Assembly (NCBI GenBank): GCA_944322945.1
Contig: CALUQN010000001.1
Span: 1 to 64,000 of the forward strand
Direction: 5' to 3'
From: Candidatus Gastranaerophilales bacterium
GTDB lineage: Bacteria; Cyanobacteriota; Vampirovibrionia; Gastranaerophilales; Gastranaerophilaceae
DNA length: 64,000 nucleotides
Both the position numbers and the translations under genes were made by a program. Below are positions 2,150 to 35,826 of this stretch, one piece after another. The stretch's first letter is position 1, and each line of letters opens with the position of its first letter. The notes beneath the pieces were generated by a model that saw only the letters and a list, made by a program, of their open reading frames with translations, searched no databases and was not told where the DNA came from.

Positions 2150-3535
2150 CTAAAAAATTTTGTACGGATTCAGGATGTTGTTCGGGTCAAAGGTCTTTTT
2201 GATTTTGCGCATATAATTCAGAGCCTCTGCATTTACAACCTGCGCAATATAAGGACGTTTGAGAGATCCTACTCCGTGTTCGCCTGACAATATTCCGCCC
2301 AATCTTGCAGTCAACTCGTACATCTCGGATTTAGCCTGCTTTAACCTGTTGTATTCATCTTCATCCCTATAATCTATCGGAATCTGCGGATGAATGCTTC
2401 CGTCGCCGACATGTCCGACCATACAGACATCCAGTCCGTATTTTTCGCAAATCGCACGTGTTCCGCGCACCAGTTCCGGAAGTTTTGAGCGAGGAACTAT
2501 CATATCATCTGTGGTTACATTCGGTTTTAATTTTGCGCAAGCGCCCATTGATGAACGTCTTGCCGTCCATATTCTGTCGTAATCTTCGTCAGTATCGGAA
2601 TATTGGATTGCGCTTGCTCCGCATTTGTTCAGGATAGAAACAACAATGTCTTTTTGGTAATCAATTGCGCAGGAAAATCCGTCAACTTCTATTACCAAAG
2701 CTGCGTCTTTGTCGCATAAAAGTCCTGACGGATAAAATTTTTCTACCGTTTGAATAGCGTTTTTATCCATGAAATCCAATGTTGTCGGATAAATCCGCTG
2801 TTCAATGATTGCGTTGACAGCACTCACGGCAGCATCTATTGTATCAAAGTATGCCATGATAACTTTTTTTGCTTCCGGCTGAGGAATTAATTTTAACACA
2901 GCTTCCGCAACAATTCCGAGTGTGCCTTCCGAGCCGATAAAGAGGCTTCCGAGATTGTAGCCGGTTGCGTTTTTAATCGTATTGGAACCTGTTCTCAAAA
3001 CTTCACCGTCTGCCATCACAACCAGCAGGTCAATTACGTAATCTTTTGTCGATCCGTATTTGAAAGTTCTGGCGCCGCCGGAAGCTTGTGCAATGCTTCC
3101 GCCGATTGTTGATACCGCAAGATTGGACGGATCAGGCGGATAATACAGTCCGTACTTTTCAACTTCTTTTTGCAGTGTTCCCACAACCACACCCGGCTGA
3201 ACTCTTGCCGTCATGTTTTCAGGATTTATTTCAAGAATTTTATTCATCTTTGAAAAATTCAGCACAATTCCGCCGTGTTCAGTACTGCAGGCACCTACTA
3301 CATTTGTGCCTGCGCCGCGGCAGATTACGGGTGTTTTGTATTTGTTTGCGGTTTTTAAAACCTTTTGAATTTCTTCTATATTTTGTACAAATACCACGGC
3401 ATCAGGCAGATTGCTTATCGTCCTAAGGTTGGAGGCATCCTGCGCATAGGCATATCGTTCCTCTATTGTTTCAAGGACATTGTCAGGGGTTAAATTTTTC
3501 TTTAATTCTTTTATCAGTTTGTTATTCGTCAACAT
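2150..3535 (-). CDS. glcD: FAD-linked oxidase, GlcD / D-lactate dehydrogenase family
   Basis: A 461-residue protein, the normal length for GlcD. The N-terminal FAD-binding (PCMH) domain shows ICRGAGTNVVG and, further on, PPDPSNLAVSTIGG and NATGYNLGSLFIGSEGTLG. The C-terminal oxidase domain has VGHVGDGSIHPQ and SGEHGVGSLKRPYIA, typical of flavoenzymes that oxidise glycolate or D-lactate. The likely reaction is a D-2-hydroxyacid to 2-oxoacid, with electrons passed to a partner such as an Fe-S protein or ETF. No GlcE or GlcF partner is adjacent. Its start lies inside the last codons of the coiled-coil gene (14-base overlap), so it is probably translationally coupled. The D-2-hydroxyacid dehydrogenase at 51849 could make its substrate. 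Substrate choice between lactate and glycolate cannot be read from sequence alone. Confidence 0.88.
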   Translation of the reverse strand: MLTNNKLIKELKKNLTPDNVLETIEERYAYAQDASNLRTISNLPDAVVFVQNIEEIQKVLKTANKYKTPVICRGAGTNVVGACSTEHGGIVLNFSKMNKILEINPENMTARVQPGVVVGTLQKEVEKYGLYYPPDPSNLAVSTIGGSIAQASGGARTFKYGSTKDYVIDLLVVMADGEVLRTGSNTIKNATGYNLGSLFIGSEGTLGIVAEAVLKLIPQPEAKKVIMAYFDTIDAAVSAVNAIIEQRIYPTTLDFMDKNAIQTVEKFYPSGLLCDKDAALVIEVDGFSCAIDYQKDIVVSILNKCGASAIQYSDTDEDYDRIWTARRSSMGACAKLKPNVTTDDMIVPRSKLPELVRGTRAICEKYGLDVCMVGHVGDGSIHPQIPIDYRDEDEYNRLKQAKSEMYELTARLGGILSGEHGVGSLKRPYIAQVVNAEALNYMRKIKKTFDPNNILNPYKIF

Positions 3536-6500
3536 AAGAAGCCAGCTTTTCGATATTCATACTTAATTTGGTCATTTGTTTTTCCATTCTTTCAAATTTC
3601 TTGTTCAGTCTTGCATCATCTCTGTCTTCCAGTAGTGCAAGTACTCTGTCAAACTTCATTTCAAGTCTGTCTAATCTTTGCTGCTGCTCTTCAAAACGGT
3701 TTTCTAATTCATTCAATATTGCGGATTTGGACGGAATTGTATCGCGTAAATCCGTTATTATTTCTTTTATTTCATCAATTTCTGCGGTCTTTTCAGAAAT
3801 TGCGCCGATATTTTCGCTTGTTGTATCAATCCATTCGCCAAGGTACATCATCACCTGATTCATAACCTTGCTTGAATTTGCGATTGTTGCAACCATTGTA
3901 TTTACGTTATCAAGTTTCTTTTCTATTCTTTCCGAATTTTTTGTGTTGTCAAGGATGTTGATGCGTTCTTCAAGTTTGAGGATTACTTTGCTAAACTCAT
4001 CAAGTCCGTTATTCAATGCCTTGTAGGATTCGTCTGATGTCAAAAGAAGTTTGTTTGTTCTTGTGCTGATACTGACGATATCTTCATTAAGCCGTTCTAC
4101 ATCATTTTTCAGATCATAAATTTGGTCAGTTGTTAGGCTTGCCTGCAATCCGTCTATTGAGCCCGCAATTTTGTGGATGTTATCTAAAATTTCAAGAACG
4201 TCATCACTTGATGAAGACTGCGACATTTCGTTCAGAACCATACGGAGTTTAGCGATATCTGATTCTACATCCTGCAATGTGTATGAGTATTCCTGTGAAT
4301 CACCTGTCCAAATTTGCTGCAGCTGATTGCGAACTTCTTTCAAATTCTGATTGATTTCGTCTGTTTTTTCTTCAACAAAATCTTTGATATCCTCTGATTC
4401 TTCCACAAATGATATCTGGTCAAAAACTGCTATTATTGCTGACATAACGGATTCTTTTATGTCATTGGCATTTTTGGATGAACTTTCTTCTATCTTATTA
4501 ATTTCTTTCAGTAGTTCATTAAATTCTTCACTCTTGCCGCTTACTTTTGTCAGTATGTTTTTAATTTCTTCAATTTCATAGATTATGTCATCGCCAGAAT
4601 CATCGGACATAGCAAGCACATCAACTTTTTCATGCAGAGCTTCCAGAGTTTCCTGAATATTTTTGGTGACATCCTGCGTATCATTCAGATTAATTGTCGT
4701 TTGAAGGTCGGAGAGTTTGTCTGATATTGCATCAAATTCTTTGATAATATCTGAGTTTAAATTTGATGTCCATTTAGAGACAACTTCTTCAATTTGTTCA
4801 ACTTGAGCTGCCTTATCAGCATTTGCATTAAGGCTTGCAGTGACTGCGGTTTCTATATGTTTTGCAAAATTTACAAGAATTTTATCAATGTAAGATTTTA
4901 AATCAGTTGAAAACTGCTGAATACTGGCAGCCTGCCCGCTGGACTTTGCAAATTCTTCGCGGAAAGTATCTGTAAGAATTTCCATCCGGTTTGAAAGCTC
5001 GGTTTTTAATATATCAATTGAGTGCAGCGCATCATCTTCGTTTGCTATAACAGATACGAATGATTTTATGTTTTCAAAATTTGTGTCGATATTTTTTTGC
5101 AGCTCTTCTTTGAAATTATCCATATAATTTTTTAGGGATAAGTCATACTGCTCGCTTGCAGCTGCAATTTTTCCTTCAATTGCTTCAATGCCGGCTTTCC
5201 ACTGGATGGAAAGATTTGTGGTTTCATCAAGATTTTTTTCCGCAACTTTGTTTATATTTTCTATTGTGATGTTTAGTATTTCAAGATTATTCCTTGAAAA
5301 ATCCGTCATCTGATTGTCAATTGCGATAATCTTTTGGGCAACATCTTTGAACACGTGTTCAAGTTTTGTGAGAGCTTCCTGGCTCATTGTAAGGCTGCTG
5401 TTCAAATCTGAGGTCAAATTCAGGTATGAAAGTTCAACCTGAGTTTTTACTTCTGTAATTATTTTATTGAAATCAAAGTCTAAAATTTGAGAAACAGCTT
5501 CTCTGACCGGCGCAAATCCTTCAATAATCATTGTGCTCTTTGTATCTATTGCATCAAGAATATCTGTATTTACGAGGTTAATTTCCTGTTTTACAGCGCC
5601 GAGTTTTTCTTCCAGTTCAAGAATTGATTGTTCAAGTGAATCCGGGGTAAGTTCTTTAATTTTGTTCAGTCCGCTGAACAACTGCTCAAATTTTACGTCA
5701 AGTTCTGCTAAATTTTGTTTTACATCACCTTTCACACCATCTTGAACAATATCTCTCATTCCAGCAATATTTGCGGTGATTTCTTCTATTTTGGAATTTA
5801 TATTTTCGGTAAGTTCATAGAATTTTACGTCCTGATTATTTTCTACTGTATTTAAGTCATCAGCTATTCTTTGAAGGTCATTTCTTATTTCAGAAATTTC
5901 CGCAACAGAATTGCCGAGTTTTATTTCTGCGTCTTCGTTATTCTTTTCTACTGTATTGATATAAGTTGTTATATTGCTGCTAAGGGTGATAAGTTTTTCT
6001 TCGTATTTATCGGAAACTTCATTGATTAAAGCTTCAACCGTGAACAACTTATTGAAGAGTTTTTCGTTAAAATCACCGCCTTCTGAAGAAAGCAATTGTC
6101 TGATTATTTCTACATCAGTTTTTAATTCTGTCATTTTTTCTTCAAACAATTGTTTGTATGCGTTGGCATTTGTCTGAAGAGCAGTTTCAACATTTTTAAC
6201 CGTTGCGGTTATATCATCTAAAGCCAGAAGGTTTCTTTCATCGCTTCTTTTGGCTATACTGATAATTTCTTCCTGACGGGATTGGAGTTCAAGTATAACC
6301 GCAAGGATATGTTCGCGCAGGTTTGTGAATTTTTCCTGCATATCGTCGTCATTGCCCGTATTAAGAGCTTTGATTTCTTTTATAGTATTGTTTACAAGTT
6401 CCGACAGGGAATCGTTGTTTTCAGCAATGTTGTCTACTATATCGGTGCGAACCATATCTAATGCGGAAAGTGCTGAATCAAAACATTCTTTAATTGAATC

Positions 6501-9500
6501 CACATTCAATTTTACGTCAGAATTAATTTCACCGAGTTTGCTTTCCACAGTGGAATTTACATCGCCCAAAAGGGAGTTTATGTGTTCAATATTATCAGCA
6601 AGGGCTGAATTTACTGCTCCGAGCTGCTCTCTTAATACGCTTTCAATATTTTCTGTTTTTTCACTTATGCCGGTGACATTTGTTGAAAGCACTGTATTGA
6701 TATTTTCTAGAGAATCTTTCATTGTAAGATTCATATCTGATATCGCTGCATTTATGTCAGTTGTATCAACGACTATTTTTTCATTTGCATTTTGCAGTTG
6801 TTCCAGCAAATCACCTGTCATATTTTCTACTTTTGTAGTTAAGGTTTCGGTTGCTGTATTCAAAGTATCATTTACGGAGGTCAACTGCGTATTTATTGCT
6901 GATGTAACATCGTCAAGTTTTTCGCCTATTGCATCGGAATTTGTTTTTAATTCCTCAGACAGGGTGTTTATTCCGTTTTGGATAGACGTGTTTACATTTT
7001 CTGATACTGAGTTCAAATTTGCTGTATGAGCACTTATAGATTCGTCTACAGATTGGAGTTGTTCTTTAAAAGATGCAGTTACAGCGTCGAGTTTCTCATC
7101 CAAATCATGCGGCGTATTATCTGTATTCTGGAAAATATTACCTATACTTTCCAGAATGGAGGTGTTGATATTTTGAATTTCGTGGCTGATATCATTTCTG
7201 CTGGAAACAATCGTATCACTCACCGTATTCAACGAACTCATCAGATTTGCTTCTGTGCTTGAGATTGCTGAACTGATAGCATTTGAAGTAAGATTTAGCG
7301 TCCCGCTCACGCTGTTGAGTTTTGCATCTACATCTGCCGTAAAGTTATCAAATTTTTCATTCAGTTTTTCATTATTTACCGCAAGTGTTTCGTTCACGAG
7401 ATTAACTTTGTCCTGAACTCCAACATTTGTAGTGTCGATAAATGTATTTAAACTTTCTGATGTTTGGGTCAAAAATTCGCTGACGCTATTCAGATTTTCA
7501 CTGACTATTGATGTAACGTTATCGAGTTTTTCATTAATTTGAACACCGGTTGAGGTAAGATTTTCATTAACTGTATTAACCCTGTTTTGGATTTCAGCGC
7601 CCATATTTTCAATAACATTATTTAAGCCGTCTGAAGTCTGCACAAGCGTTTCTGCAGCACCGGTAAATTTTTCATCTATTGCTGAGGTAATGTTATCAAG
7701 TTTTTCGTTAACTATTTCATTTCTTGCAATGATATTTTCGTTAATAAGATTAATATTTCCGTTAATTTCGCTGCCGGTAGTCGCAACAACAGTATGAAGC
7801 CCGTCAGTACCCAGTGTCATGGCTTCCGACACGCCGGCAAATTTTTCGTCCATTGCTGATGATATACCGTCGAGCTTTTCGTTAACTTTATCATTCCTTT
7901 CTGAAATATTTGCATTCAGAAGATTTATATTTTCTTTGAGTTCACTGCCCGTGGTTTCAACAACAGTTTGGAGAGTTTGCGAGGCAGTCGACAAGGAGTC
8001 TGCAGCGTTTGCAAATTTTTCGTCCATTGCTGATGATATACCGTTAAGCTTTTCGTTAACCTTATCGTTTCTTTCTGAAATATTTGCATTCAGAAGATTT
8101 ACATTTTCTTTAAGTTCACTGCCCGTAGTTTCAACAACAGTTTGGAGAGTTTGCGCGGTAGTCGACAAGGAGTCTGCCGCGTTTGCAAATTTTTCGTCCA
8201 TTGCTGATGATATACCGTCAAGCTTTTCGTTAACCTTATCGTTTCTTTCTGAAATATTTTCATTCAGAAGATTTATATTTTCTTTGAGTAAACTGCCCGT
8301 AGTTTCAACAACAGATTGCAGCCCGTCTGAAGTATGTGTCAGTGCATCACCTGCACTTGTAAATTTTTCATCAAGCGCGGATGTTATGTTATCAAGTTTT
8401 TCATTAACTCGGTCGTTCCCAGCTATAATATTATCATTCAGAACGTTGATGTTATCCTTAATAGCCGCACCGGTATTCTCAATAACCGAGTTCATACCGT
8501 TTGAAGTTTCGTTGAGTGATTCACGAACATTTGAGAGGCGTTCCTCCAATACAGAAGAAAGATTTTCAAGGTTTTCGGTTACACGAACATTATTTTGGTT
8601 AATAACATCAACAGCCTCAGATATTTTACCGCCTATATTCTGTCCGATATCGGAAGTTGTTCCATTAAGTGTTTCTTTTACTCCTTCAAAACGGGCATCC
8701 ATTGTTGATGAAATATTGTCGAGTTTTTCGTTTACTGCTGCAAAGTTTGATGTGACAGATTCATTTACTGTCTCAAATTTATTTGCAGCAGAATCCCCGC
8801 TAATTCTAAGAGTATTTGTAATTTCATCAAGTTTTTCACGGATTGTTTCATCAACAGCTTTAAATGATTCCAGCGAGGTTTCCAGACGCACGTCTGATTT
8901 TGAATTAAACACTTCAAGTGCTTCTACCAGCCCTTTTAATTGAAGTTTTACATCAGATATACCGTTGATGGAATTGTCCAGCTTTTCATCAGTTAAATCT
9001 TTTATCTGATTTATGGAAGTAATATATTCGTTTAATTTATTATTTAAACCGGTCAGGTTGTCATCATAATGACGAATACCTTCTGATAAAGCAGCCTCAA
9101 GCGCTGTTAGCTTTTCTGCGGTCTCTCCGCTGCCGGAAATCTTTATATCGTTTAAAATTTCAGTTATTGAACCCAGAGAATTTTTGAGAGCATTAATGTT
9201 TTGTTCAATGTCATAATCAGGTTGAGCCGGAATTTCAGGGATTTCTATATTATTTATAGCTTTTAATATATCTTCAAGCTTGCCGGAAAGAGCAGGATTT
9301 TCCGGACTGATTGACGGTGTGTCTATTGAAATATTTTCAACAAGACTTTTTATTGAAGACAGATTTTTGGCAAAATCTTCTTGGAGAACTGCGCTCAATT
9401 CGTCAATCTTGGCTGATGATGCGCCGATATCCGTCAAAATCTGTTCTAAATTTGAAGTTGAAAGTGATTTAAAATTGTCGCCGACTTTGCTTATTTCCGA

Positions 9501-10238
9501 TGATGTTTTATTAAATTTTTCATCTATTGTTGATCGCAAATCGTTGATTGCTTTTACCGCATTTATGGGTTCTCTGTCAATAAGTTCATCAATTTTATTT
9601 TCAACTGATGAAATTACATTGTACATCTCCTCATCTTTTTTGTCGGAAATCTCCAAAGATGAAAGAATTGCATTTGAAGAGAGGAAAATATTTTCCAGTT
9701 CTCTTTTTATAATATCATTTTGTTCGGTCGTATCCATTGTAAGGATATGCCTGAGGATATTCTGGAGGTTTGTGTTTATGTCAATAACGTAAGATTCCAG
9801 CGAACGGTTAAAATTCTCAAGATCGGATTTGATAGTTACGACACTTTTAATAACTTCATCCCTGTCGGATTTGTCAGCGGTCATGTCGTTGAGTTTTTGG
9901 CGGACAGATTCAAGAAAATTATGCTGGTTCAGCAATTCGCTGTAAAAATTATTTACATCGGTTTTTAACGAAGAGAAAAACTCTTCTGTTTCCGCAGTCT
10001 TGGAAAGTGAATCCTGAGCAGATAAAACATTATCCAAAGAAGAATTCAAAGCTGAAAACTGCTCAAGTGCATCAGTGTATTTGCTGTTAATCAGTTCTTC
10101 AATTTGAGGTAATGACACAGTCAAAATTTCATTTATTTCCTCGTTCTGGTTAAGTTCGTTAACCTTGTTGATTATTTCAGCCTTTTCGCTGTTGATTAGC
10201 TGTACCAAACCGTTAATATCTTCTACTCTCTGTGCCAT
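3522..10238 (-). CDS. Giant coiled-coil protein with 58-residue tandem repeats
   Basis: A 2238-residue protein, acidic and rich in Asn, Ser, Glu, Leu and Ile, with heptad-like hydrophobic spacing almost end to end. I see no signal peptide, membrane span or catalytic motif. From about residue 500 to 1000 it is built of about nine or ten tandem units of 58 residues with the signature 'VNEKLDxISSAMDEKFA' followed by 'TVVETTGSELKENINLLN'. The units near bases 7837-8360 are almost identical at the DNA level with exact 174-base spacing. Further C-terminal units are more degenerate, and the last ~120 residues are charged (LENRFEEQQQRLDRLEMKFD). A fibrous, cytoskeletal or chemoreceptor-signalling-like role is possible but unproven. 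It heads an operon with the GlcD-like and metallopeptidase genes and is divergent from kor. Confidence 0.9.
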   Translation of the reverse strand: MAQRVEDINGLVQLINSEKAEIINKVNELNQNEEINEILTVSLPQIEELINSKYTDALEQFSALNSSLDNVLSAQDSLSKTAETEEFFSSLKTDVNNFYSELLNQHNFLESVRQKLNDMTADKSDRDEVIKSVVTIKSDLENFNRSLESYVIDINTNLQNILRHILTMDTTEQNDIIKRELENIFLSSNAILSSLEISDKKDEEMYNVISSVENKIDELIDREPINAVKAINDLRSTIDEKFNKTSSEISKVGDNFKSLSTSNLEQILTDIGASSAKIDELSAVLQEDFAKNLSSIKSLVENISIDTPSISPENPALSGKLEDILKAINNIEIPEIPAQPDYDIEQNINALKNSLGSITEILNDIKISGSGETAEKLTALEAALSEGIRHYDDNLTGLNNKLNEYITSINQIKDLTDEKLDNSINGISDVKLQLKGLVEALEVFNSKSDVRLETSLESFKAVDETIREKLDEITNTLRISGDSAANKFETVNESVTSNFAAVNEKLDNISSTMDARFEGVKETLNGTTSDIGQNIGGKISEAVDVINQNNVRVTENLENLSSVLEERLSNVRESLNETSNGMNSVIENTGAAIKDNINVLNDNIIAGNDRVNEKLDNITSALDEKFTSAGDALTHTSDGLQSVVETTGSLLKENINLLNENISERNDKVNEKLDGISSAMDEKFANAADSLSTTAQTLQTVVETTGSELKENVNLLNANISERNDKVNEKLNGISSAMDEKFANAADSLSTASQTLQTVVETTGSELKENINLLNANISERNDKVNEKLDGISSAMDEKFAGVSEAMTLGTDGLHTVVATTGSEINGNINLINENIIARNEIVNEKLDNITSAIDEKFTGAAETLVQTSDGLNNVIENMGAEIQNRVNTVNENLTSTGVQINEKLDNVTSIVSENLNSVSEFLTQTSESLNTFIDTTNVGVQDKVNLVNETLAVNNEKLNEKFDNFTADVDAKLNSVSGTLNLTSNAISSAISSTEANLMSSLNTVSDTIVSSRNDISHEIQNINTSILESIGNIFQNTDNTPHDLDEKLDAVTASFKEQLQSVDESISAHTANLNSVSENVNTSIQNGINTLSEELKTNSDAIGEKLDDVTSAINTQLTSVNDTLNTATETLTTKVENMTGDLLEQLQNANEKIVVDTTDINAAISDMNLTMKDSLENINTVLSTNVTGISEKTENIESVLREQLGAVNSALADNIEHINSLLGDVNSTVESKLGEINSDVKLNVDSIKECFDSALSALDMVRTDIVDNIAENNDSLSELVNNTIKEIKALNTGNDDDMQEKFTNLREHILAVILELQSRQEEIISIAKRSDERNLLALDDITATVKNVETALQTNANAYKQLFEEKMTELKTDVEIIRQLLSSEGGDFNEKLFNKLFTVEALINEVSDKYEEKLITLSSNITTYINTVEKNNEDAEIKLGNSVAEISEIRNDLQRIADDLNTVENNQDVKFYELTENINSKIEEITANIAGMRDIVQDGVKGDVKQNLAELDVKFEQLFSGLNKIKELTPDSLEQSILELEEKLGAVKQEINLVNTDILDAIDTKSTMIIEGFAPVREAVSQILDFDFNKIITEVKTQVELSYLNLTSDLNSSLTMSQEALTKLEHVFKDVAQKIIAIDNQMTDFSRNNLEILNITIENINKVAEKNLDETTNLSIQWKAGIEAIEGKIAAASEQYDLSLKNYMDNFKEELQKNIDTNFENIKSFVSVIANEDDALHSIDILKTELSNRMEILTDTFREEFAKSSGQAASIQQFSTDLKSYIDKILVNFAKHIETAVTASLNANADKAAQVEQIEEVVSKWTSNLNSDIIKEFDAISDKLSDLQTTINLNDTQDVTKNIQETLEALHEKVDVLAMSDDSGDDIIYEIEEIKNILTKVSGKSEEFNELLKEINKIEESSSKNANDIKESVMSAIIAVFDQISFVEESEDIKDFVEEKTDEINQNLKEVRNQLQQIWTGDSQEYSYTLQDVESDIAKLRMVLNEMSQSSSSDDVLEILDNIHKIAGSIDGLQASLTTDQIYDLKNDVERLNEDIVSISTRTNKLLLTSDESYKALNNGLDEFSKVILKLEERINILDNTKNSERIEKKLDNVNTMVATIANSSKVMNQVMMYLGEWIDTTSENIGAISEKTAEIDEIKEIITDLRDTIPSKSAILNELENRFEEQQQRLDRLEMKFDRVLALLEDRDDARLNKKFERMEKQMTKLSMNIEKLASYVDE
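7837..8358 (-). repeat. Near-identical 174 bp tandem repeats inside the giant gene
   Basis: Three in-frame copies begin at 7837, 8011 and 8185 ('gcaaatttttcgtccattgc' on the + strand), each exactly 174 bases (58 codons) apart. They differ at only a few positions, far more alike than the outer units, so they are recent duplications or are kept uniform by recombination. Confidence 0.92.
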
Positions 10239-10407
10239 TTACATATCCACTTTCTATAAATATATTACATCCCTGATTAATATTCTATCAGAATAATACT
10301 TAAAAGGGCAATATTTTTAGTTCTATTATTACAATTGTAAACATACATTTAACTTTTTATTTTTAGGTGGTATAATTATTATCAGACTAGTGAAATATGA
10401 GGTGATA
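10239..10407. promoter_or_regulatory. Divergent intergenic region between giant gene and kor operon
   Basis: Very AT-rich spacer. For the + strand a -10-like 'tataat' occurs in 'ggtggtataattatta' (10365-10380), about 30-40 bases before the ferredoxin start, with 'gaggtgata' as ribosome binding site. The minus-strand promoter must also lie here, but no single box stands out. Confidence 0.5.
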
Positions 10408-10620
10408 ATGAGTCATATTGTAATAGATGAGTCCAAATGCAAGGCTTGTTATTTATGTATAAGTGAATGCCCTAAAAAACTTATAAAGAAGAGCGAAAAA
10501 GTTAATAAACTGGGTGCGCGTGTTGTAGAATTTGACGATCCCGAGCATGTTTGCCTCGGGTGTGCAATGTGTGCAACAAGATGCCCGGATATGGCAATAA
10601 CAGAAGTTTACAAAGGCTAA
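10408..10620 (+). CDS. korD: 2[4Fe-4S] ferredoxin, delta subunit of 2-oxoacid:ferredoxin oxidoreductase
   Basis: A 70-residue ferredoxin with two complete cluster motifs, CKACYLCISECP near the N-terminus and CLGCAMCATRCP near the C-terminus, each C-x2-C-x2-C-x3-CP. I chose the ATG at 10408 because 'gaggtg' sits just upstream; a GTG at 10390 would add six residues and has no better site. The gene ends 10 bases before the alpha subunit and begins a four-gene operon, so it most likely passes electrons from the TPP centre of the beta subunit to external ferredoxin. Confidence 0.88.
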   Translation: MSHIVIDESKCKACYLCISECPKKLIKKSEKVNKLGARVVEFDDPEHVCLGCAMCATRCPDMAITEVYKG

Positions 10621-10630: not shown

Positions 10631-11701
10631 ATGACGGAATGTCTTGCTGAAAATAAAAAAGTTTTGACAAAAGGTAATTATGCAATAGCGCAGGCAGCTA
10701 TTAACGCCGGATGCGAATGCTATTTTGGGTATCCGATTACCCCGCAGAGCGAAATCGGTGAATATATGAGCAAACACATGCAGGATTTAGGCAGAGGCTA
10801 TGTGTCAGCAGAAAGCGAACTTGCTGCAATAAATATGGTACTCGGAGCATGCTCAACAGGCGCAAAAGCCATGACCTCATCTTCATCTTGTGCGGTTGCT
10901 CTTATGCAGGAAGGGCTTTCTTATGCAACTTCCGATGAGCTGCCGGTGGTGCTGGTGAGTGTTATGCGCGGAGGCCCGGGGCTCGGAAATATTTACCCGT
11001 CTCAGGGTGATTACAATCAGGCAACAATAGGCGGAGGAGACGGCGATTACAAGCTTATCGTCCTGGCTCCCGCTTCTGTTCAGGAATGCGTTGATTTGAC
11101 TTACAAAGCTTTTTATCTTGCGCATAAATATAAAAACCCGACAGTGCTGCTTGCTGACGGACTTCTTGCACAGATGATGGAACCCGTTGAATTTGGTGAA
11201 TATCCTTATCCGGAAATTGACAATTCATCTTGGGCTTTGACCGGCGCAAAAGGAAGACCTTCAAGAAAAATCCGTTCTTACGGACCGACTGAAGAAGGTC
11301 AGTGTGTACACATCGAACATCTGTTCGAAAAATACAAAAAAATTGAAGAAAATGAAGTTTTGTACGAAGAATACATGACTGATGATGCGGATTTGATTAT
11401 TGTAAGCTTCGGCAGTATGTCCAGAGTCGTAAAATCAGCAGTAAAAGAATTACGCAAAAAAGGTATTAAAGCAGGAGCCTTACGCCCGATTACACTCTAT
11501 CCGTTCCCGACAAAACGCATTGCGGAACTTTCAAAAAACGCTAAAAAGTTCCTCGTGACGGAAATCAATATGGGACAGATGATAAGAGATGTCAAACTTG
11601 CCGTAAACGGCAGAGTTCCTGTTGAATTTTTAGGCAAACCGGTCGGAGCAATGCTTCACGTTGAAGATGTTATGAACGCGGCAGAAAGGTTAATGGTGTA
11701 A
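10631..11701 (+). CDS. korA: 2-oxoacid:ferredoxin oxidoreductase, alpha subunit
   Basis: A 356-residue protein of the KorA/VorB family. It has the alpha-subunit start 'GNYAIAQAAINAGCECYFGYPITPQSE' pattern (G-Y-P-I-T-P at about residues 36-41), AESELAAINMVLGA, and the Ser/Thr-rich MTSSSSCAVALMQEG. The C-terminal transketolase-like part has LRPITLYPFPTKR. The complex oxidatively decarboxylates a 2-oxoacid with CoA to acyl-CoA, reducing ferredoxin. Gene order delta-alpha-beta-gamma is typical of KOR/VOR. Whether it prefers 2-oxoglutarate or branched-chain 2-oxoacids cannot be settled here. Confidence 0.9.
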   Translation: MTECLAENKKVLTKGNYAIAQAAINAGCECYFGYPITPQSEIGEYMSKHMQDLGRGYVSAESELAAINMVLGACSTGAKAMTSSSSCAVALMQEGLSYATSDELPVVLVSVMRGGPGLGNIYPSQGDYNQATIGGGDGDYKLIVLAPASVQECVDLTYKAFYLAHKYKNPTVLLADGLLAQMMEPVEFGEYPYPEIDNSSWALTGAKGRPSRKIRSYGPTEEGQCVHIEHLFEKYKKIEENEVLYEEYMTDDADLIIVSFGSMSRVVKSAVKELRKKGIKAGALRPITLYPFPTKRIAELSKNAKKFLVTEINMGQMIRDVKLAVNGRVPVEFLGKPVGAMLHVEDVMNAAERLMV

Positions 11702-11703
11702 TT

Positions 11704-12456
11704 ATGGCTGTTCAAGTTTTTAAAATACCTGAATCTATTAAAAAAGATTGCAATTTTTCATTCTGCCCCGGATGTGATCACGGTGTTGCTATCAGGCTTG
11801 TGGCGGAAGTTCTCGATGAATTAGGCCTCCGTGAAAAAACTATCTCGGCAACTTCTATCGGCTGTTCAGTATGCCTGTATGATTTTTTGGAAATAGACTG
11901 TATAGAAGCGCCTCACGGTCGTGCACTTGCTGCAGCAACCGGAGTTAAACGGTCAAAACCTGACAAATTTGTATTTACATATCAGGGCGATGGCGATTTT
12001 GCGTCAATCGGTCTTGCTGAAAGTTTACACGCCGCATTGAGAGGCGAAAAACTAAGCGCAATTTGTATAAACAATACAACATACGGTATGACCGGCGGAC
12101 AGCTCGGCCCGACAACTCTTTTGGGTCAGAAAACCACAACTTCCGTTGACGGAAGAAATGTTGAGTACTACGGATATCCGATAAAAATTGCGGAACACGT
12201 TGCACTCTGCGACGGAACGGCATTTAGCGCAAGAGTTTCGCTGGATACTGTTGCAAATATCCGAAAAGCTAAACAAGCAATAAAAAAAGCTTTTCAGGTA
12301 CAGATGGACGGGCTTGGATTTGGTTTTGTAGAAATTCTCGCTACCTGCCCGACTAACTGGAAAATGACACCGGAACAGGCGCATGAAAGAGTACGAACAC
12401 AGATGATGGAAGTGTTTAAGCCTGGCGTATATAAAGATATTACACAAAACAACTAA
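11704..12456 (+). CDS. korB: 2-oxoacid:ferredoxin oxidoreductase, beta (TPP) subunit
   Basis: A 250-residue protein that binds thiamine diphosphate. FCPGCDHGVAIRL gives the N-terminal CxxC-H signature, and the TPP/Mg motif is GDGDFASIGLAES ending in INNTTYGMTGGQ. GRALAAATGVKR is also a family hallmark. The gene begins two bases after korA stops, so expression is coupled. This subunit carries out the decarboxylation step. Confidence 0.93.
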   Translation: MAVQVFKIPESIKKDCNFSFCPGCDHGVAIRLVAEVLDELGLREKTISATSIGCSVCLYDFLEIDCIEAPHGRALAAATGVKRSKPDKFVFTYQGDGDFASIGLAESLHAALRGEKLSAICINNTTYGMTGGQLGPTTLLGQKTTTSVDGRNVEYYGYPIKIAEHVALCDGTAFSARVSLDTVANIRKAKQAIKKAFQVQMDGLGFGFVEILATCPTNWKMTPEQAHERVRTQMMEVFKPGVYKDITQNN

Positions 12457-12472
12457 GGGAAATATTACAAAT

Positions 12473-13018
12473 ATGGAAAAGAATTTTATCATCGCAGGAT
12501 TTGGCGGACAGGGCGTATTGCTCGCGGGTGAAGTTTTAGCTAATGCTTTTATGTTAATGGGTAAATATGTAACGTGGTACCCCAGCTACGGCGCTGAAAT
12601 GAGAGGCGGAACCGTTAACTGTGAAGTAGTTATGAGTGATGAAGAAGTCAGCGCTGTGTGCAAAAAAGACACTGATTTTGTAATAGCACTAAACCAGTTA
12701 TCTTTTGACAAATTTTTGCCTAAGATAAAAAAAGGCGGCTGGATGATTGCAAATTCTACTCTTGTTAAAGAGATTAAAAGCAGAGCTGACATAAACTACC
12801 TTTTTGCCCCGATTTCAAAACTTGCAGACAATCTTGGCGACATAAGAATGGCAAACATTATGTCCTTGGGATTTTTATCAAAAGTCAGCGGGATTATATC
12901 AATTGAAGCATTGAGCCACGCTCTTGATAATGTTCTTCCTCCGCACAGAAAACATCTTTTGCCCAAAAACCTTGAGGCTCTGCAAATCGGCTACGGCTAT
13001 CAATTAATTCCGGCATAA
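12473..13018 (+). CDS. korC: 2-oxoacid:ferredoxin oxidoreductase, gamma subunit
   Basis: A 181-residue protein starting IIAGFGGQGVLLAGEVLA, the glycine-rich gamma-subunit signature, followed by WYPSYGAEMRGGT, which is diagnostic for KorC/VorC/PorG. It starts 16 bases after korB with 'aaggga' upstream and is the last gene of the kor operon. A repeat block follows directly, and I see no clear intrinsic terminator. Confidence 0.92.
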   Translation: MEKNFIIAGFGGQGVLLAGEVLANAFMLMGKYVTWYPSYGAEMRGGTVNCEVVMSDEEVSAVCKKDTDFVIALNQLSFDKFLPKIKKGGWMIANSTLVKEIKSRADINYLFAPISKLADNLGDIRMANIMSLGFLSKVSGIISIEALSHALDNVLPPHRKHLLPKNLEALQIGYGYQLIPA

Positions 13019-19957: not shown

Positions 19958-20304
19958 TTTAAGTCTTTAATACCTTTCTATTTACCATAATTACTTACTA
20001 CTACGGCAACTTCTACTATAGCCTAATTTTTGTGAACATTGCTCATACTTTCGTATGAAATCCACAGTTTTTATTTAAGGTTTTTTTTTAAGAAGTCAAT
20101 GGTATAGAAGATTTTTATAACCAGAAAAATTGTTACAAATTGTTAACTTCTTAAAATCCTTACGGTGAGTGCATTTAAGGCGTTTTAGCGCATAAAAATC
20201 CTCTTATTCATGCAATTTTCATAAAATAAAATTTTTTATATAGGCATAGGGGATAAGTAAAGTAAATAATTTTCTTTTCACGGGGAAAATTGAAAGGGGA
20301 AAAA
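19958..20304. other. AT-rich intergenic stretch
   Basis: About 350 bases between divergent genes with no gene or clear palindrome. It presumably holds both promoters. 'gaaagggga' at 20292-20300 is the ribosome binding site of the downstream gene and fixes its ATG at 20305. Confidence 0.4.
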
Positions 20305-22116
20305 ATGTCACTACAAGAAGTACGATTTTTACAGACTTTGAACGGAGGAAGCACAAGCAGCGCAACTCCGAAAAAATTAACACCGGAAGAACTTGCGGCA
20401 AAGAAAAAAGCTCAGGAAGAACTTATGGAAAATTTCAAGCTGGCAGCTGACAAATTAAAACAAACTGACAACTTGGAATTAAACGGTAAAAAGAACAAAG
20501 ATAATCGCGAAGTACGCTTGAATGCGTTGATTGATTATTTCAAAAACGGTGGTTTTGGTTTGACTGAAAAAGAAGCAAAAGAATTTGCTGAAGAAGCTCT
20601 GAAAGATGAACAGGCAGAAGAACGTAATGAACATACAAGATTGTATTTCAACAAAGACGAATACAACGCAAATAAAGATAAAGATAAGAAAGAAGGTTTT
20701 GAACCTAAATACATTAGGAAAAAATCAATAAGAAAAGCAATGCTTGCAAGACCGGAATTATTCTTCGAACAAAATAAGGATGGTTCATTTATACTTGACA
20801 AAAACGGACAGATGATATTCTCCCAGGCAAAATATACCAATACATTGCTTGAACACACCGGCGACTACAGAATGGAACTTTCTGAAAGAGAAACAGTTGC
20901 CGCTGAATTTGGTATCAAAAAACGCCGTGCAAAAACTATGGCAAAATATGCAAACTTTGATTATGAAAAAGACAGAACCTGGTTGTACAGAGCTGCAGGA
21001 ATTCTTGCAGGTACAGGATTAGGAATTCTGACAGGCGGAATTCTTGGTAAAACATCGCGTACAGTAATTGATGGTGATTTTCTGGCTCAAGCTGTAGATT
21101 CAGAAAATGGTGAATTACTGGCAGAAGCTATCCGTAATGTAGATATAAGCAAACCAAACACTAAAAAATACGCAGCAGTCGGCGGTTTGAGTTCATTACT
21201 TCCGTCAATAGGTTTATCAATGTTTATCAAAGACAGAGGTAAATCAAGCATAATGCAAACAACTGCGGAAAACATTGTTGATAACGGTGTAGCTTCAGTT
21301 AAAGGCGACGACAACAAACATATGGTTTCAGGGCTTCTGGAATTGATGGATGCGGCAGGTTTAGATCGTGAACAAAAAATCAGATTGATTGAGTTAACAC
21401 AAGGTATCGCGTCAGGTAAACATACAACAGACCGTGAACTTGCAGCGTTAGGCACAGAAATGAAAACTATTCTGACCCTTCCTCCTGAAGAGGTAGTAGA
21501 AGAAGAGGAGGAAGAAGAAGAACCGGTAGTTACGCCGACTAATCCGACTAATCCGACCAATCCAACCAATCCGACTAATCCGGAGCCAACTGTCGAATAC
21601 GGTGCAAAACTCAAATCAAGAGACATACCAACAGAAACAGATGAAGATGTATTCCAATATCATCATACAGCAGGTGAATATTGGTCAGGTATAGCAAAAG
21701 TAATGTATGACGTTGATGATGAGACTGCATACAAACTCGGTGTCGAATTGAAAAAACGTCACGGTTTTGCTCCATCCTCAGCAGATATGCCTAAGATTGT
21801 CAACCTTCCGAAAACACTTCTGGGTCATACAAGAAAATATGACAATGATGAAGATGTAAACCGTATCAGAAGTACAGAGGCAAGCGACGGCAGACAAAGA
21901 GCAACAAGTGCGTTCAAACCTCAAAAGGTAACCACAATGACAAAAGTTCATGACGGTTATGTGACACAAACCACAAACCCCGGCAAAGAGGATGAATCCT
22001 ACAAGGAAGTCGTCACAGCACAGGGTATGAATGACAAGGAAGCACAAACTTGGCTTCAAACAGCACAAAAACTCATTAAAGAAGTGCCTGAAAAAATCGC
22101 AGCATTATTTAAGTAA
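20305..22116 (+). CDS. Hypothetical protein with Asn-Pro-Thr linker and LysM-like C-terminus
   Basis: A 603-residue protein starting MSLQEVRFLQTLNGG; a TTG 15 bases upstream lies inside the ribosome binding site and is unlikely. The N-terminal half is charged and helical, with a NGQMIF..AKY segment. Residues ~230-250 hold a Gly-rich hydrophobic stretch (GILAGTGLGILTGGILG) that may span or associate with the membrane. A Glu run (VVEEEEEEEEPVV) and five NPT repeats form a linker before the C-terminus. YHHTAGEYWSGIAKVMYDV resembles a LysM start, suggesting glycan binding, but this is weak. A terminator hairpin follows. Function unknown. Confidence 0.85.
   Translation: MSLQEVRFLQTLNGGSTSSATPKKLTPEELAAKKKAQEELMENFKLAADKLKQTDNLELNGKKNKDNREVRLNALIDYFKNGGFGLTEKEAKEFAEEALKDEQAEERNEHTRLYFNKDEYNANKDKDKKEGFEPKYIRKKSIRKAMLARPELFFEQNKDGSFILDKNGQMIFSQAKYTNTLLEHTGDYRMELSERETVAAEFGIKKRRAKTMAKYANFDYEKDRTWLYRAAGILAGTGLGILTGGILGKTSRTVIDGDFLAQAVDSENGELLAEAIRNVDISKPNTKKYAAVGGLSSLLPSIGLSMFIKDRGKSSIMQTTAENIVDNGVASVKGDDNKHMVSGLLELMDAAGLDREQKIRLIELTQGIASGKHTTDRELAALGTEMKTILTLPPEEVVEEEEEEEEPVVTPTNPTNPTNPTNPTNPEPTVEYGAKLKSRDIPTETDEDVFQYHHTAGEYWSGIAKVMYDVDDETAYKLGVELKKRHGFAPSSADMPKIVNLPKTLLGHTRKYDNDEDVNRIRSTEASDGRQRATSAFKPQKVTTMTKVHDGYVTQTTNPGKEDESYKEVVTAQGMNDKEAQTWLQTAQKLIKEVPEKIAALFK
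21535..21582 (+). repeat. Nine-base tandem repeat coding NPT
   Basis: Five tandem units of roughly 'actaatccg/accaatcca' encode the NPT linker of the 20305 protein, a likely length-variable microsatellite. Confidence 0.75.
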
Positions 22117-24066: not shown

Positions 24067-24703
24067 GTTATTTCTGGCATTTTTACTGCTGACATCGTCC
24101 GCTTTAGCCGGTGAATTAATCCGGGATGAACTTGTTGAAACAACCCTTGACAGTTCGCTAAAGCCCAAGCCGTACGTCCAAAAAGTCTACAAAGATAAAT
24201 TAGTTGAAAAGACTCTATTAGGGAAAAATTTGCCCATGCCTGTGCCGAACCTGCATTATAATTATGCGGATTCTGACGGGGTAGTGGTTAAGCTCCGACC
24301 CAAAACGAAAATTTCAACCGGCGGCAAGCTGCGTGACGGTGATGTCGTTAAATTTGTGGTAACACAAAATATCGTCCACAACGGTAGGGTTATCCTTGAG
24401 AAAAATTCCGAAGTTAGCGCAGTGGTTGAAAATATTTCACCAAACGACAGATACGGCGTTCCGGCAAGTATTGTCATTTCCCGTTTCAGTTCGGAAGTTT
24501 TACCGGACAAAACACTCGACGGCGAGATTAATCTGCAGGGTAAAAACAATTCCTTATGGGTTTATCCGCTTTCATACTTTTTGATGCCGTTTTTCGGGGC
24601 AGGATTCGGAACAACATTCATCCGGGGAGGAAATGTTAACATCTCACCTGATGAAACTATTGAAATCTACTACCGTCCGACCCGTTTCAGAACCGGTTTG
24701 TAA
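24056..24703 (+). CDS. Secreted protein of unknown function
   Basis: A 215-residue protein with signal peptide IIRLFLAFLLLTSSALA. The mature part starts with repeated VETTLDSSLKPKPYVQKVYKD and VEKTLLGKNLPMP segments. A beta-rich domain with VVKLRPKTKISTGGKLRDGD follows, then an apparent hydrophobic Gly-rich stretch (FLMPFFGAGFGTTFIRGG). Co-transcribed with the M48 protease. The last 17 bases overlap the end of the convergent ketosynthase gene. I do not recognise a family. Confidence 0.8.
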   Translation: MIIRLFLAFLLLTSSALAGELIRDELVETTLDSSLKPKPYVQKVYKDKLVEKTLLGKNLPMPVPNLHYNYADSDGVVVKLRPKTKISTGGKLRDGDVVKFVVTQNIVHNGRVILEKNSEVSAVVENISPNDRYGVPASIVISRFSSEVLPDKTLDGEINLQGKNNSLWVYPLSYFLMPFFGAGFGTTFIRGGNVNISPDETIEIYYRPTRFRTGL

Positions 24704-25913
24704 AAATCAGCGATGTATTAATCCCGCCAAAGGCAAAGTTATTTGACATAACATAATTTGTGTCAATTTCCCGACCTGTGTGCATTATATAATCCAGAGG
24801 CGCACAGTCGTCGGCAACCTTGTTTAAATTCAGCGTCGGATGGAACCATTTTTTGTTCATCATCTCTATTGTTAAAATCGCCTCTATGGCACCGCAGGCG
24901 CCGAGAGTGTGTCCTGTGTAGCTTTTGAGTGAACTTATCGGGACCGCGCGCTTGAATACGTCATAAGTTGCGTTGCTTTCTGTCATATCACCCTGAATTG
25001 TACCTGTACCGTGAGCGTTTATATAACCTATTTTATCAGGTGAAAGCTTTGCACTCTCAAGCGAAAGCTCCATAACTTTCGCAACTGTCGGACGATTTGG
25101 AGTTGTGATATGGTTTCCGTCTGTGTTTGTCGCAAACCCTATTATTTCCGCAATAATATTTGCACCGCGTTTTTTTGCGTGCTCATATTCCTCTAAAATA
25201 AGAGTTCCGGCGCCCTCGCCTATGACAAGCCCGTCGCGTTCCGCGTCAAAAGGTGACGGCGTAAGTTCAGGCGTAGAATTTTTCTGGCTTGTTGCATAAA
25301 GTGTATCAAAAATCGCAATCTGTGTCGGGTGAAGTTCATCCGAGCCGCCGGCTATCATTACGTCAGCATAACCGTTTTTTATAGCTTCATAAGCGCTGCC
25401 GACTCCCAAAGACCCTGATGTGCAGGCAGTAGACGTCGTTATCAGCCGTCCTGTTGTCTTAAAATACATTGAAATATTCACAGGCGCAGTGTGAGCCATC
25501 ATTTTTACGTAAGAGCCTGACGTCAAACCTTTTACGGATTTTTCCACCTGCATTGAATAAAAATCAATCAAAGCTTCCATTGTACCGGATGAAGAGCCGT
25601 AACTCACGCCTGTTCTGCCGTTTTGAATTACAGAATCATTCAAAAGTCCTGCCTGCTCAAGTGCTTTTTCAGTACATGCAACACTCATCACGGAAACTCT
25701 GCCCATTGTACGCAAAACCTTCCGCGTATAATGTTCAGGGGTCTGAAAATCTTCTATCGGCGCTGCAAGCTTTGTATTCAAACGCTCGTACTGCTCAAGG
25801 CTTTCCATATATTTGACAGAATTTTTATACACTTGCAAGCGTTCAAAAGCTTCCTCTGCGGAGAACCCCAGCGAGCTGACCAAAGACATTCCGGTAACTA
25901 CCACACGCCTCAC
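24687..25913 (-). CDS. Beta-ketoacyl synthase (FabF-like), aryl-polyene-type cluster
   Basis: A 408-residue ketosynthase with the full catalytic triad: Cys164 in STACTSGSLG, His301 in NAHGTGTIQGD and His335 in KSYTGHTLGACG. It performs decarboxylative condensation of malonyl-ACP onto a growing acyl chain. It is the last gene of a minus-strand operon (KS2, dehydratase, ketoreductase, this KS) whose members overlap by 4 bases each. By content it plays the elongating-KS part of an aryl polyene/flexirubin type II system. A housekeeping FabF is less likely given the neighbours. Its 3' end overlaps the convergent 24056 gene. Confidence 0.9.
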   Translation of the reverse strand: MRRVVVTGMSLVSSLGFSAEEAFERLQVYKNSVKYMESLEQYERLNTKLAAPIEDFQTPEHYTRKVLRTMGRVSVMSVACTEKALEQAGLLNDSVIQNGRTGVSYGSSSGTMEALIDFYSMQVEKSVKGLTSGSYVKMMAHTAPVNISMYFKTTGRLITTSTACTSGSLGVGSAYEAIKNGYADVMIAGGSDELHPTQIAIFDTLYATSQKNSTPELTPSPFDAERDGLVIGEGAGTLILEEYEHAKKRGANIIAEIIGFATNTDGNHITTPNRPTVAKVMELSLESAKLSPDKIGYINAHGTGTIQGDMTESNATYDVFKRAVPISSLKSYTGHTLGACGAIEAILTIEMMNKKWFHPTLNLNKVADDCAPLDYIMHTGREIDTNYVMSNNFAFGGINTSLIFTNRF

Positions 25914-26632
25914 AGGTAAAGCCCTCCGTTTACTGAAATTACCTGACCTGTAATATATGACGCATCTTCACTCATAAGGTAATTTATAAGGCTTGCGACT
26001 TCTTTTGGCTTGCCGAGACGCTTCATCGGAATCATTTTCTTCATCTCGTCAACAGGCAAATCCTTTGTCATATCGGTTTCAATTGCACCAGGTGCAACGC
26101 AGTTTACGGTTATACCGCGCTTTGCAAGTTCAAGACTCAAAGCCTTTGTAGCTCCGATAATTCCTGCCTTTGAAGCGCTGTAATTCACCTGACCGCGGTT
26201 ACCGCACAATCCGGAAACAGACGAAAGGGTCACAATCCGACCTTTTATCCTTTTTTCTATCATCGGCATTACGAGCGGTCTGAGCACATTGTAAAATCCG
26301 CCTAAGTTTGTGCTCAAAACGTCATCCCACTCGCTGTCTTCCATTGCCGGAAATACATTGTCTCTGGAAATTCCTGCATTGACAACGATACCGTAATACA
26401 TTCCGTTTGCAGAAATATCATCAAGGAGAACACGGCTGCATTCTTCTCTGTTTTGAACATTGAATTTCAAAACGCGTGCACTTTGTCCCAGAGCTTCTAT
26501 CGCTTTTTTGACGTCATCAGGAATTGTTTTGTTGTAGTGCAAAACAATATCATATCCGTTTTTTGCAAGATATATTGCAGTTTCGCGGCCAATGCCGCGA
26601 CTTGAACCTGTAATCAAAATCTGTTTATTCAT
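25910..26632 (-). CDS. 3-oxoacyl-ACP reductase (FabG-like ketoreductase)
   Basis: A 240-residue short-chain dehydrogenase. The cofactor loop is TGSSRGIGRETA (residues 9-20), NAGIS lies near residue 85, and the catalytic residues are Ser138, Tyr151 and Lys155 (TLSSVSG and YSASKAG). The C-terminus is ITGQVISVNGGLYL. It reduces the beta-keto group after each condensation. Four-base overlaps with both neighbours indicate translational coupling within the polyene operon. Confidence 0.92.
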   Translation of the reverse strand: MNKQILITGSSRGIGRETAIYLAKNGYDIVLHYNKTIPDDVKKAIEALGQSARVLKFNVQNREECSRVLLDDISANGMYYGIVVNAGISRDNVFPAMEDSEWDDVLSTNLGGFYNVLRPLVMPMIEKRIKGRIVTLSSVSGLCGNRGQVNYSASKAGIIGATKALSLELAKRGITVNCVAPGAIETDMTKDLPVDEMKKMIPMKRLGKPKEVASLINYLMSEDASYITGQVISVNGGLYL

Positions 26633-27072
26633 CGTACCTCTTCAAAATTTACGGTATCTTCCGGCATATACGCATTTACTATAGCATTTGCGCACTCTTG
26701 TTCTCCATTATAGATAAAACACTCAAATGATACAAGGTCGGTATCGCCATAAACTTCTTTTGCCTTTATAGTATAAGACTTTCCCTCTTCAAATTTTTCA
26801 AGTGTATTTTTGTAAGAGCGTGTACCGAGTAAAAAGCCTATTTTAGGAGTGCACTCATTGTTTTTAAAAAACGAATAGCACCCTATAGTCTGTGCCATAA
26901 ATTCAATACCCACAAGCGGATTTACACCGTCTTTTTCAAAGAAAATTTTATCTTTGCGGATATCAACAGAACAAATAATATAATGTTCTGCAAGATTAAC
27001 CTCAATGATATCATCAATCAATATCATCGGATAATTATGCGGGAGAACTTTTTCCAAATCATATTTCTTCAT
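26629..27072 (-). CDS. Hotdog-fold 3-hydroxyacyl-ACP dehydratase, APE type
   Basis: A 147-residue protein. It starts LPHNYPMILIDDI, the usual FabZ-like lead, and has PLVGIEFMAQTIGCYSFF, the acidic 'E.mAQ' helix of hotdog dehydratases. The FabZ 'GHFPG' segment is not conserved (FFEKDGVNP at that place), a feature shared by the short dehydratases of aryl polyene clusters as far as I recall. It would remove water to build the conjugated double bonds. A second dehydratase domain is fused to the ligase at 30658. Confidence 0.75.
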   Translation of the reverse strand: MKKYDLEKVLPHNYPMILIDDIIEVNLAEHYIICSVDIRKDKIFFEKDGVNPLVGIEFMAQTIGCYSFFKNNECTPKIGFLLGTRSYKNTLEKFEEGKSYTIKAKEVYGDTDLVSFECFIYNGEQECANAIVNAYMPEDTVNFEEVR

Positions 27073-28163
27073 TTTCTCTTACCCATAATTATAACAGCAT
27101 TTGTACCGCCAAAGCCGAATGAGTTTGACATGCAGATATTAAGTTTTTCCGTGCGGGCATTCTTATCCGCAAGCTTGATTTTAGGCAAAGCGTCATCGTA
27201 AACACCGTCGTAAACATGCGGTAGTAACTTATGTTCCGGATTATCTGTCAGCATCTCACAGCACATAGCAATTTCAACACTGGCAGCAGCACCGAGACAG
27301 TGTCCGGTGAGCGGTTTGGTGGAACTCACGAACACCTTATCACCAAAAATTTTATTGATTGCATTGGCTTCCATAATATCGTTGCTCACAGTGCCTGTGC
27401 CGTGCATGTTTATATAATCTACATCTTCAGGCGTAAGCCCTGCTTGATTAAGAGCGATTTGGATAGCGCGTGCAGCCTGTTCGCCTTCCGGATCAGGAGT
27501 TGCAGCGTGGTAGGCGTCTGATGTCTCGCCAAGCCCCAGAATTTCTATGCCGTTTTCAGCATCTTTTTCCAGAATAAAAAGTGCGCCGCCCTCACCAATA
27601 TTCATACCTTTACGATTTTTGCTCATCGGGTTTGTAAGTTCATCGGACAAAACCTCCAGCGCGCCGAAACCGTAAAGCGGCAAATCAGCCATCGGCTCTG
27701 TCCCGCCGGTGATTACGGCATCACAGATACCGCTGTTTAAAAGTTTCATCGCAGTAGAAAATACTTTCACTCCGGAAGTGCAGGCGGTTGAAACAGACGC
27801 GTAAAAATTTGTAAACCCCAAATATTTAGCCAAAAATTCAGCAGGATTGCCGAATTGAGCATATTTCAGCTCGCCGTCGCGCTCCAACTCCTGTATTCCG
27901 GAATTGGTTGTGCCGATAACTATTCCTATCCGGTCTTTTCCGTATTTTTTGATTAAATTATCAATTTCAGGACGCATTTTATTGACGCAATGAAGCAAAA
28001 TTTGATTGCAGCGCAAATTATAGTCATGCTCTGATATCTGCGGCAAATCAGCCGTAATCTTATGCTCGCTCACAACACCGTTGAGTGCGTTTTTGAAAAT
28101 TTCCCTGATATCCTCTCCCAGACAGCATATTGCTGATGTTTTTGTAATAAAAATTTTTCCCAT
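27069..28163 (-). CDS. Second beta-ketoacyl synthase of the polyene cluster
   Basis: A 364-residue ketosynthase, shorter than FabF (~410), with an intact triad: Cys128 in VSTACTSGVKVF, His254 in NMHGTGTVSND and His288 in PLTGHCLGAAAS. Because its active Cys is present it is not a chain-length factor; it may act in starter loading or an early condensation, as proposed for the extra KS of APE systems. It is the first gene of the minus-strand arm, 38 bases from the divergent arm, sharing a symmetrical promoter region. Confidence 0.88.
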   Translation of the reverse strand: MGKIFITKTSAICCLGEDIREIFKNALNGVVSEHKITADLPQISEHDYNLRCNQILLHCVNKMRPEIDNLIKKYGKDRIGIVIGTTNSGIQELERDGELKYAQFGNPAEFLAKYLGFTNFYASVSTACTSGVKVFSTAMKLLNSGICDAVITGGTEPMADLPLYGFGALEVLSDELTNPMSKNRKGMNIGEGGALFILEKDAENGIEILGLGETSDAYHAATPDPEGEQAARAIQIALNQAGLTPEDVDYINMHGTGTVSNDIMEANAINKIFGDKVFVSSTKPLTGHCLGAAASVEIAMCCEMLTDNPEHKLLPHVYDGVYDDALPKIKLADKNARTEKLNICMSNSFGFGGTNAVIIMGKRK

Positions 28164-28182
28164 AACTTTATTTTTACCAACG

Positions 28183-28198
28183 ACTATATTATTATAGT
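28183..28198. promoter_or_regulatory. Symmetrical bidirectional promoter region of the polyene cluster
   Basis: ACTATA-N4-TATAGT forms a 6-base inverted repeat in the 38 bases between the two divergent arms, giving a -10-like box on each strand. On the + strand 'tattat' (28187-28192) stands 9 bases before the ATG at 28202, which has no ribosome binding site. Confidence 0.45.
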
Positions 28199-28201
28199 AT
28201 C

Positions 28202-29541: not shown

Positions 29542-29550
29542 ATGGGATGT

Positions 29551-29684: not shown

Positions 29685-29758
29685 TAGCTTCCAATAAATT
29701 GACTTTAATGTTTTATCAGGTTAAAATTTTATAGACACAGGAATTAGGGATTAAAATT

Positions 29759-32250: not shown

Positions 32251-32281
32251 ATGAATTTACAAACAACAAAGAGGTTTTACC

Positions 32282-32698: not shown

Positions 32699-32703
32699 AT
32701 ATT

Positions 32704-35824: not shown

Positions 35825-35826
35825 GC

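Follow-up and report, generated by a model that had tools for sequence, protein, structure and literature searches.

Organization of the rod gene and its locus

The stretch analysed (the window, 64,000 nt of contig CALUQN010000001.1 of a Candidatus Gastranaerophilales bacterium) carries on its minus strand, at 3522–10238 and from an ATG start, a gene for a helical rod protein of 2238 residues that is present in a single copy in the 2.1-Mb host genome (35 contigs). The original prediction had described a coiled-coil-like frame with 58-residue repeats, lacking a membrane or catalytic domain and overlapping an FAD oxidase by 14 bases. All of this was confirmed: neither a transmembrane or signal segment nor an enzyme domain was found, 58 was the strongest repeat lag, and positions 3522–3535 are shared with a GlcD-like FAD-linked oxidase gene (2150–3535, minus strand; PF01565 and PF02913), whose start falls within the terminal part of the rod gene. 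Our analysis added a conserved C-terminal module, a hinge, and a 29-residue rather than heptad periodicity. A promoter scan gave 34 against 29.4 (s.d. 4.9) in shuffled sequences, without a clear excess.

From the N terminus, the protein consists of an all-helical head (residues 1–304; 9327–10238), a proline-rich hinge (residues 305–342; 9213–9326) that holds 6 of the 12 prolines and is conserved in the genus, rod I (residues 343–1260; 6459–9212), rod II (residues 1261–1829; 4752–6458), which has a helical period of ~3.61 and no clear repeats, and the C-terminal module, or C-module (residues 1830–2238; 3525–4751), all encoded on the minus strand. The protein contains one cysteine and is acidic (D+E 18.4% versus K+R 8.9%), and its rod is rich in Asn (13%) and Ser plus Thr (20%).

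Downstream of the oxidase gene lies a minus-strand gene for a 264-aa protein with a HEFAH zinc-peptidase-like motif (1345–2139), which matched no Pfam family above cutoff. On the other side, the plus strand codes for a 4Fe-4S ferredoxin-like subunit (10390–10620) of a 2-oxoacid oxidoreductase operon and, in three further genes (10631–13018), for 2-oxoacid:ferredoxin oxidoreductase subunits. The proposed metabolic operon was thus borne out on the GlcD and metallopeptidase side, but not on the side of the 2-oxoacid oxidoreductase genes, which are divergent. Elsewhere in the window, an aryl-polyene-like cluster (24687–37817) codes for ketoacyl synthases, a reductase, an ApeP-like dehydratase, an acyltransferase, an AMP-binding/ApeI-like protein, a thioesterase, an exporter-like protein matching SecD/SecF_C, and an O-methyltransferase.

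Non-heptad periodicity of the rod

The hydrophobic residues of rod I follow a period of 3.625 (29/8; 11+11+7), clearest from residue 480. Between residues 480 and 1190 the period was measured as 3.63, with a power of 103, while shuffled sequences reached 11.5 at most. When the rod was folded on 29 residues, seven positions (0, 4, 7, 11, 15, 18 and 22) were hydrophobic with 70–100% occupancy, forming a stripe of less than 90 degrees. Positions 25/26 made a polar layer, Lys and Arg lay on one flank, and Asp and Glu faced outward. The pattern indicates an 11+11+7 coiled coil that is nearly straight and not heptad-based; with a period of 29/8, the 58-residue unit corresponds to 2 × 29 residues. 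Core positions are mostly occupied by large aliphatic residues, with Ala at 8 of 189. The hendecad dimers of FilP and Scy have Ala-rich cores (PMC9858780), and the scarcity of Ala in the rod core therefore makes a higher oligomer more likely, suggesting an assembly of three or more strands.

A length-variable rod between fixed ends

Self-comparison of the protein at lags of 7–399 residues gave the strongest signal at 58 (z 4.4), followed by 116, 290, 174 and 232. The 58-residue array (7365–8582, minus strand) comprises units starting at residues 553, 611, 669, 727, 785, 843 and 901, and weaker units start at residues 502, 959, 1046, 1104 and 1191. Tandem Repeats Finder (TRF) reported a 174-bp array at 7837–8318 with 2.8 copies, 94% matches and a score of 859 (threshold 50). 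The two most recent copies are the adjacent units 669 and 727 (residues 669–784; 7887–8234, minus strand), whose DNA identity is 94% overall and 90% at third codon positions. Neighbour-unit identity falls outward from this pair to 76–71, 60 and 51%. The expected contrast between near-identical middle units and diverged outer units was therefore found as a gradient, with strict near-identity limited to two units. In congeners the outer units were orthologous across species and the inner units grouped within species, indicating that the middle units are recent copies. TRF also detected a 9-bp tandem repeat (21535–21582) in another gene of the window (20290–22116), whose 608-aa product contains a Pro-Thr-Asn triplet run.

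Alignment to the congeners L031–L033 was nearly gap-free at residues 1–335 and from ~917 to 1800, and its large indels lay at 515–916. Among 103 distinct genes of relatives we counted 50 recent tandem duplications, of many periods and at many positions. Some pairs of close species differed by whole units, L039 and L122 by 29 aa and L040 and L139 by 46 and 80 aa; each of these steps is also the period of a repeat present in the longer gene of the pair. Complete genes of the 103-gene set span 748–2688 aa (CV 0.26), and a gene of 2867 aa occurs in L164; since most relatives are MAGs built from short reads, each species being represented by a single genome, these differences are between species and the repeat copy numbers may be collapsed. 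In one supported clade, L162 and L163 (778 and 761 aa) differ 3.7-fold from their sister L164. The original prediction had named a constant repeat number with high divergence in relatives as an outcome that would speak against it, and this was not observed: species differ greatly in rod protein length, in many cases by entire units. These comparisons indicate a hypervariable rod length arising through recurrent, lineage-specific tandem duplications, whereas length variation in coiled-coil regions is on average 3.6 times less than in other protein regions (review PMC5082667). We considered whether every duplication preserves the helical phase and make no such claim, because the 50 duplications are non-independent and gave a Rayleigh p of ~0.06; periods of 23, 24 and 27 did not fit.

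The ends behaved differently. The distance from the first C-module motif to the C terminus had a median of 249 residues (IQR 246–256) across the 103 relatives, while whole length had the CV given above, and conservation of the C-module was far above that of the rod and head. In an alignment of 47 sequences, its motifs (minus strand) were YSYTLQDVESDIAKLR (4242–4289), with invariant Y, D, E and D columns; SISTRTNKLLL (4041–4073) followed by TSDES, with the family form SISxRTNKLLLxSDES; YLGEWID (3825–3845), with an invariant E-W-x-D; and, in addition, IEKLASYVDE. The head aligned without gaps between congeners and was weakly conserved beyond them. AlphaFold2 predicted the C-module as all-helical (mean pLDDT 71) and the head as helices 2–78, 82–121, 126–167 and 172–302 (mean pLDDT 70, pTM 0.36); confidence was low around the hinge, at 304–311 and 334–345. 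Neither of these medium-confidence models had a significant fold match in the PDB.

Occurrence and gene context in relatives

We searched a C-module profile in 289 genomes of the class Vampirovibrionia. It matched 187 genomes of the same family, the host included, some of them weakly (down to ~5e-4), and five genomes from other families of the order at ~1e-17 or better. Among the genomes listed without a match, G222, of the same family, also had none with a longer profile. Matches in seven further class members and in 12 genomes elsewhere in the phylum had E values above 1e-8; they were weak or short, and we read them as coiled-coil noise. No convincing homologue was present in the oxygenic cyanobacteria sampled. 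The C-module matched nothing in phages and plasmids, and an origin of the rod gene from either was dismissed on that ground. The named relatives were mostly Candidatus Gastranaerophilales or Melainabacteria MAGs. The gene thus appears to be near-universal in the sampled family and clade-restricted. No paper on such a rod protein was found in the literature, and the giant length-variable rods appear to constitute an undescribed family without a family model of its own.

GlcD directly followed the rod gene in all 79 evaluable loci among the 80 best-matching ones, and in 76 the two genes overlapped by 11, 14 or 17 bp; 2-oxoacid oxidoreductase genes were divergent from the rod gene in 70 of 70 close loci. 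A HEFAH zinc-peptidase-like gene like that of the window occurred after GlcD, within three genes, at 35 of the 79 loci. Loci from the family's other genera, and from a second family of the order, often had a uracil-DNA glycosylase or phosphoglucose isomerase gene upstream of the rod gene instead. Mapped on the C-module tree, the context labels required 9 changes, against 25 with shuffled labels. The coupling to GlcD is fixed in the near clade, whereas other branches have lost or loosened it or do not have it at all, and the metabolic pairing thus does not define the family and says little on its function. The association with flavoprotein and metallopeptidase genes that had been pointed out as unusual is accordingly real, and for GlcD it is constant in the near clade. 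At eight loci from lineages without the GlcD coupling (L052, L055, L058, L060, L154, L155, L157 and L158) the rod gene lay 52–216 bp downstream of uracil-DNA glycosylase, L060 being from another family of the order, and this arrangement is possibly the older context. Rod-like genes stood near MlaD and ABC-ATPase-type genes at two loci only (L064 and L065). None of the conserved neighbours pointed to cell shape, division or segregation.

Relation to known protein families

Two Pfam families matched above cutoff: Apolipoprotein (PF01442; 151.1 bits versus 90) in seven stretches, and Baculo_PEP_C (52 bits versus 38); in each case the highest-scoring stretches fell in the rod. The Apolipoprotein match peaked in the repeat rod; over the first 513 residues it was weak, and the 25 matches listed for the C-module did not include it. 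We read the two matches as reflecting periodicity and composition, and the known-family match (for example to a chemoreceptor or secreted adhesin) that had been put forward as one possible refutation was not found. No homologue of known function and no solved relative was found.

Several identities were considered and rejected. A chemoreceptor lacked support from a transmembrane segment or an MCP Pfam match, the profile match to 2ch7 being weak and of coil type. SMC/Rad50 was dismissed because there was no ATPase domain and the SMC model scored 37.6 bits against a cutoff of 729. PADLOC ZorA models matched down to 1e-25, with the match confined to the rod; the protein has no MotA/ExbB-like membrane motor or transmembrane segment, and NCBIfam ZorA scored 56 bits against 190. 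A trimeric autotransporter would need a signal peptide and a YadA-type C-terminal anchor, but the protein has no N-terminal hydrophobic segment and matched no anchor family. The hendecad-type rod expected of DivIVA/FilP/Scy proteins was present (3.625, 11+11+7 layers), but their N-terminal GYDxxEVD motif was seen in 0 of 103 relatives and there was no DivIVA Pfam match. As in coiled-coil-rich cytoskeletal proteins, the protein is predicted to be soluble and is dominated by coiled coil, with no transmembrane or enzyme domain. The highest 19-residue Kyte–Doolittle mean was 1.31, and none of the 103 relatives exceeded 1.6; N-terminal hydrophobicity was 0.97, compared to 2.7–3.4 in secreted-like proteins of the same window, and no signal peptide or transmembrane segment was seen across these relatives.

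Discussion

We tentatively favour a cytoplasmic, homo-oligomeric rod that acts as a scaffold or filament, a reading we hold at somewhat less than even confidence. The architecture, periodicity, fixed ends, unit-wise length change, clade restriction, single copy and lack of export signals are read from the sequences themselves; the cytoplasmic location, oligomerisation and scaffold or filament role are what we infer from them. A helical head and a hinge would be followed by a nearly straight rod of 29-residue layers and a conserved helical docking or assembly module, giving a contour length of ~330 nm if fully helical (2238 × ~0.148 nm). The C-module, and perhaps the head, would set assembly or attachment, and the rod would supply reach, as in a structural scaffold or a filament subunit of the kind formed by bacterial coiled-coil-rich proteins. 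Tandem repeats that recombine unequally would let this reach evolve quickly, gaining or losing complete units while the reading frame stays intact. Of the length-variable filament, scaffold or cytoskeletal element originally proposed, the length variation and the lack of an enzyme, receptor or adhesin domain were upheld, and polymerisation remains putative. A more specific version, in which the rods form an order-specific cytoskeletal system of gut Melainabacteria whose filament or cable subunits are tuned in length by gain and loss of 11+11+7 units between fixed ends, is conceivable but rather unlikely.

An alternative that we consider possible, though unlikely, is a non-polymerising tether or spacer. 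In the manner of golgins or SMC-like arms, its head and C-module would bind different partners (envelope, chromosome or enzyme complexes), and the rod would limit how far apart these can be. The two distinct ends, the hinge at 305–342 and the much stronger conservation of the C-module than of rod or head are consistent with it, but no partner was identified, and coils acting as spacers are usually constant in length (PMC5082667), which is hard to reconcile with 761–778 versus 2867 aa in one clade. Because variation of this extent is unusual for spacer-type coils (PMC5082667), rod length may also matter little.

The remaining alternatives fare worse. Export by a non-classical route as a surface fibre or adhesin, in which the gut environment would drive the variation in length, is improbable. 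Variable repeats, Asn/Ser/Thr richness, polar core layers and few cysteines are common in surface fibres, and Asn/Ser/Thr-rich rods with polar core layers occur also in extracellular fibres, so that these traits and the single Cys in 2238 residues agree with such a fibre; against it stand a family without signal peptide or hydrophobic anchor, although window controls with clear signal peptides were recognized, the absence of a YadA-type anchor or any other surface family above the Pfam cutoff, and the overlap with the gene of a flavoenzyme that lacks a signal peptide. An amphipathic helix protein coating lipids or membranes would account for the PF01442 match and the 11-residue-type periodicity. 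Lipid-binding helices have a broad hydrophobic face, and the rod has a narrow stripe (7/29, <90 degrees) in a strongly acidic protein; the match also fades outside the repeat rod, and we rejected this identity as very improbable even though the match itself is real. Most improbable is a scaffold or regulator dedicated to the adjoining GlcD and 2-oxoacid oxidoreductase genes: their constant presence in the close loci favours it, but there are genera of the family in which the rod gene persists with no GlcD next to it, often with uracil-DNA glycosylase or phosphoglucose isomerase upstream.

The putative scaffold or filament rod resembles several known proteins in part. Like Scy and FilP of Streptomyces, the family consists of long hendecad-rich rods with large length differences and expansion of coil repeats (PMC9858780), but Scy and FilP have Ala-rich dimer cores and the GYDxxEVD motif of a DivIVA-like superfamily and belong to another phylum, and the 58-residue repeat here is a doubled 29-residue (11+11+7) unit. 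The Fm7001-type coiled-coil-rich proteins of cyanobacteria, the sister lineage, are soluble and proposed to be intermediate-filament-like (PMC7002697); the present rod is much longer, is built of tandem units and has no convincing homologue in the sampled cyanobacteria, and its polymerisation is only putative. Crescentin and other intermediate-filament-like proteins share the soluble rod without a nucleotide-binding domain, in contrast to which ours is mostly non-heptad, far longer and not conserved in length, with no sequence match reported. The apolipoprotein A1/A4/E domain has a similar 11/22-residue helical periodicity, but the stripe of the rod is narrow, the protein strongly acidic and the match best in recent repeats. 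The tail of ZorA, from the Zorya anti-phage motor, is likewise long, helical and similar in composition, but the rod protein has no membrane motor segment and lies among metabolic genes.

The family reverses the usual length constancy of coiled coils, and does so in a gene kept by nearly every sampled member of the lineage. Its 29-residue core pattern offers structural study a clear non-heptad coil, and its natural length series, which runs from 748 to about 2870 aa and includes pairs exactly one unit apart, offers a way into the role that length plays in a bacterial rod protein. The rod gene adds an apparently undescribed core gene to a gut lineage whose cell biology is hardly known.
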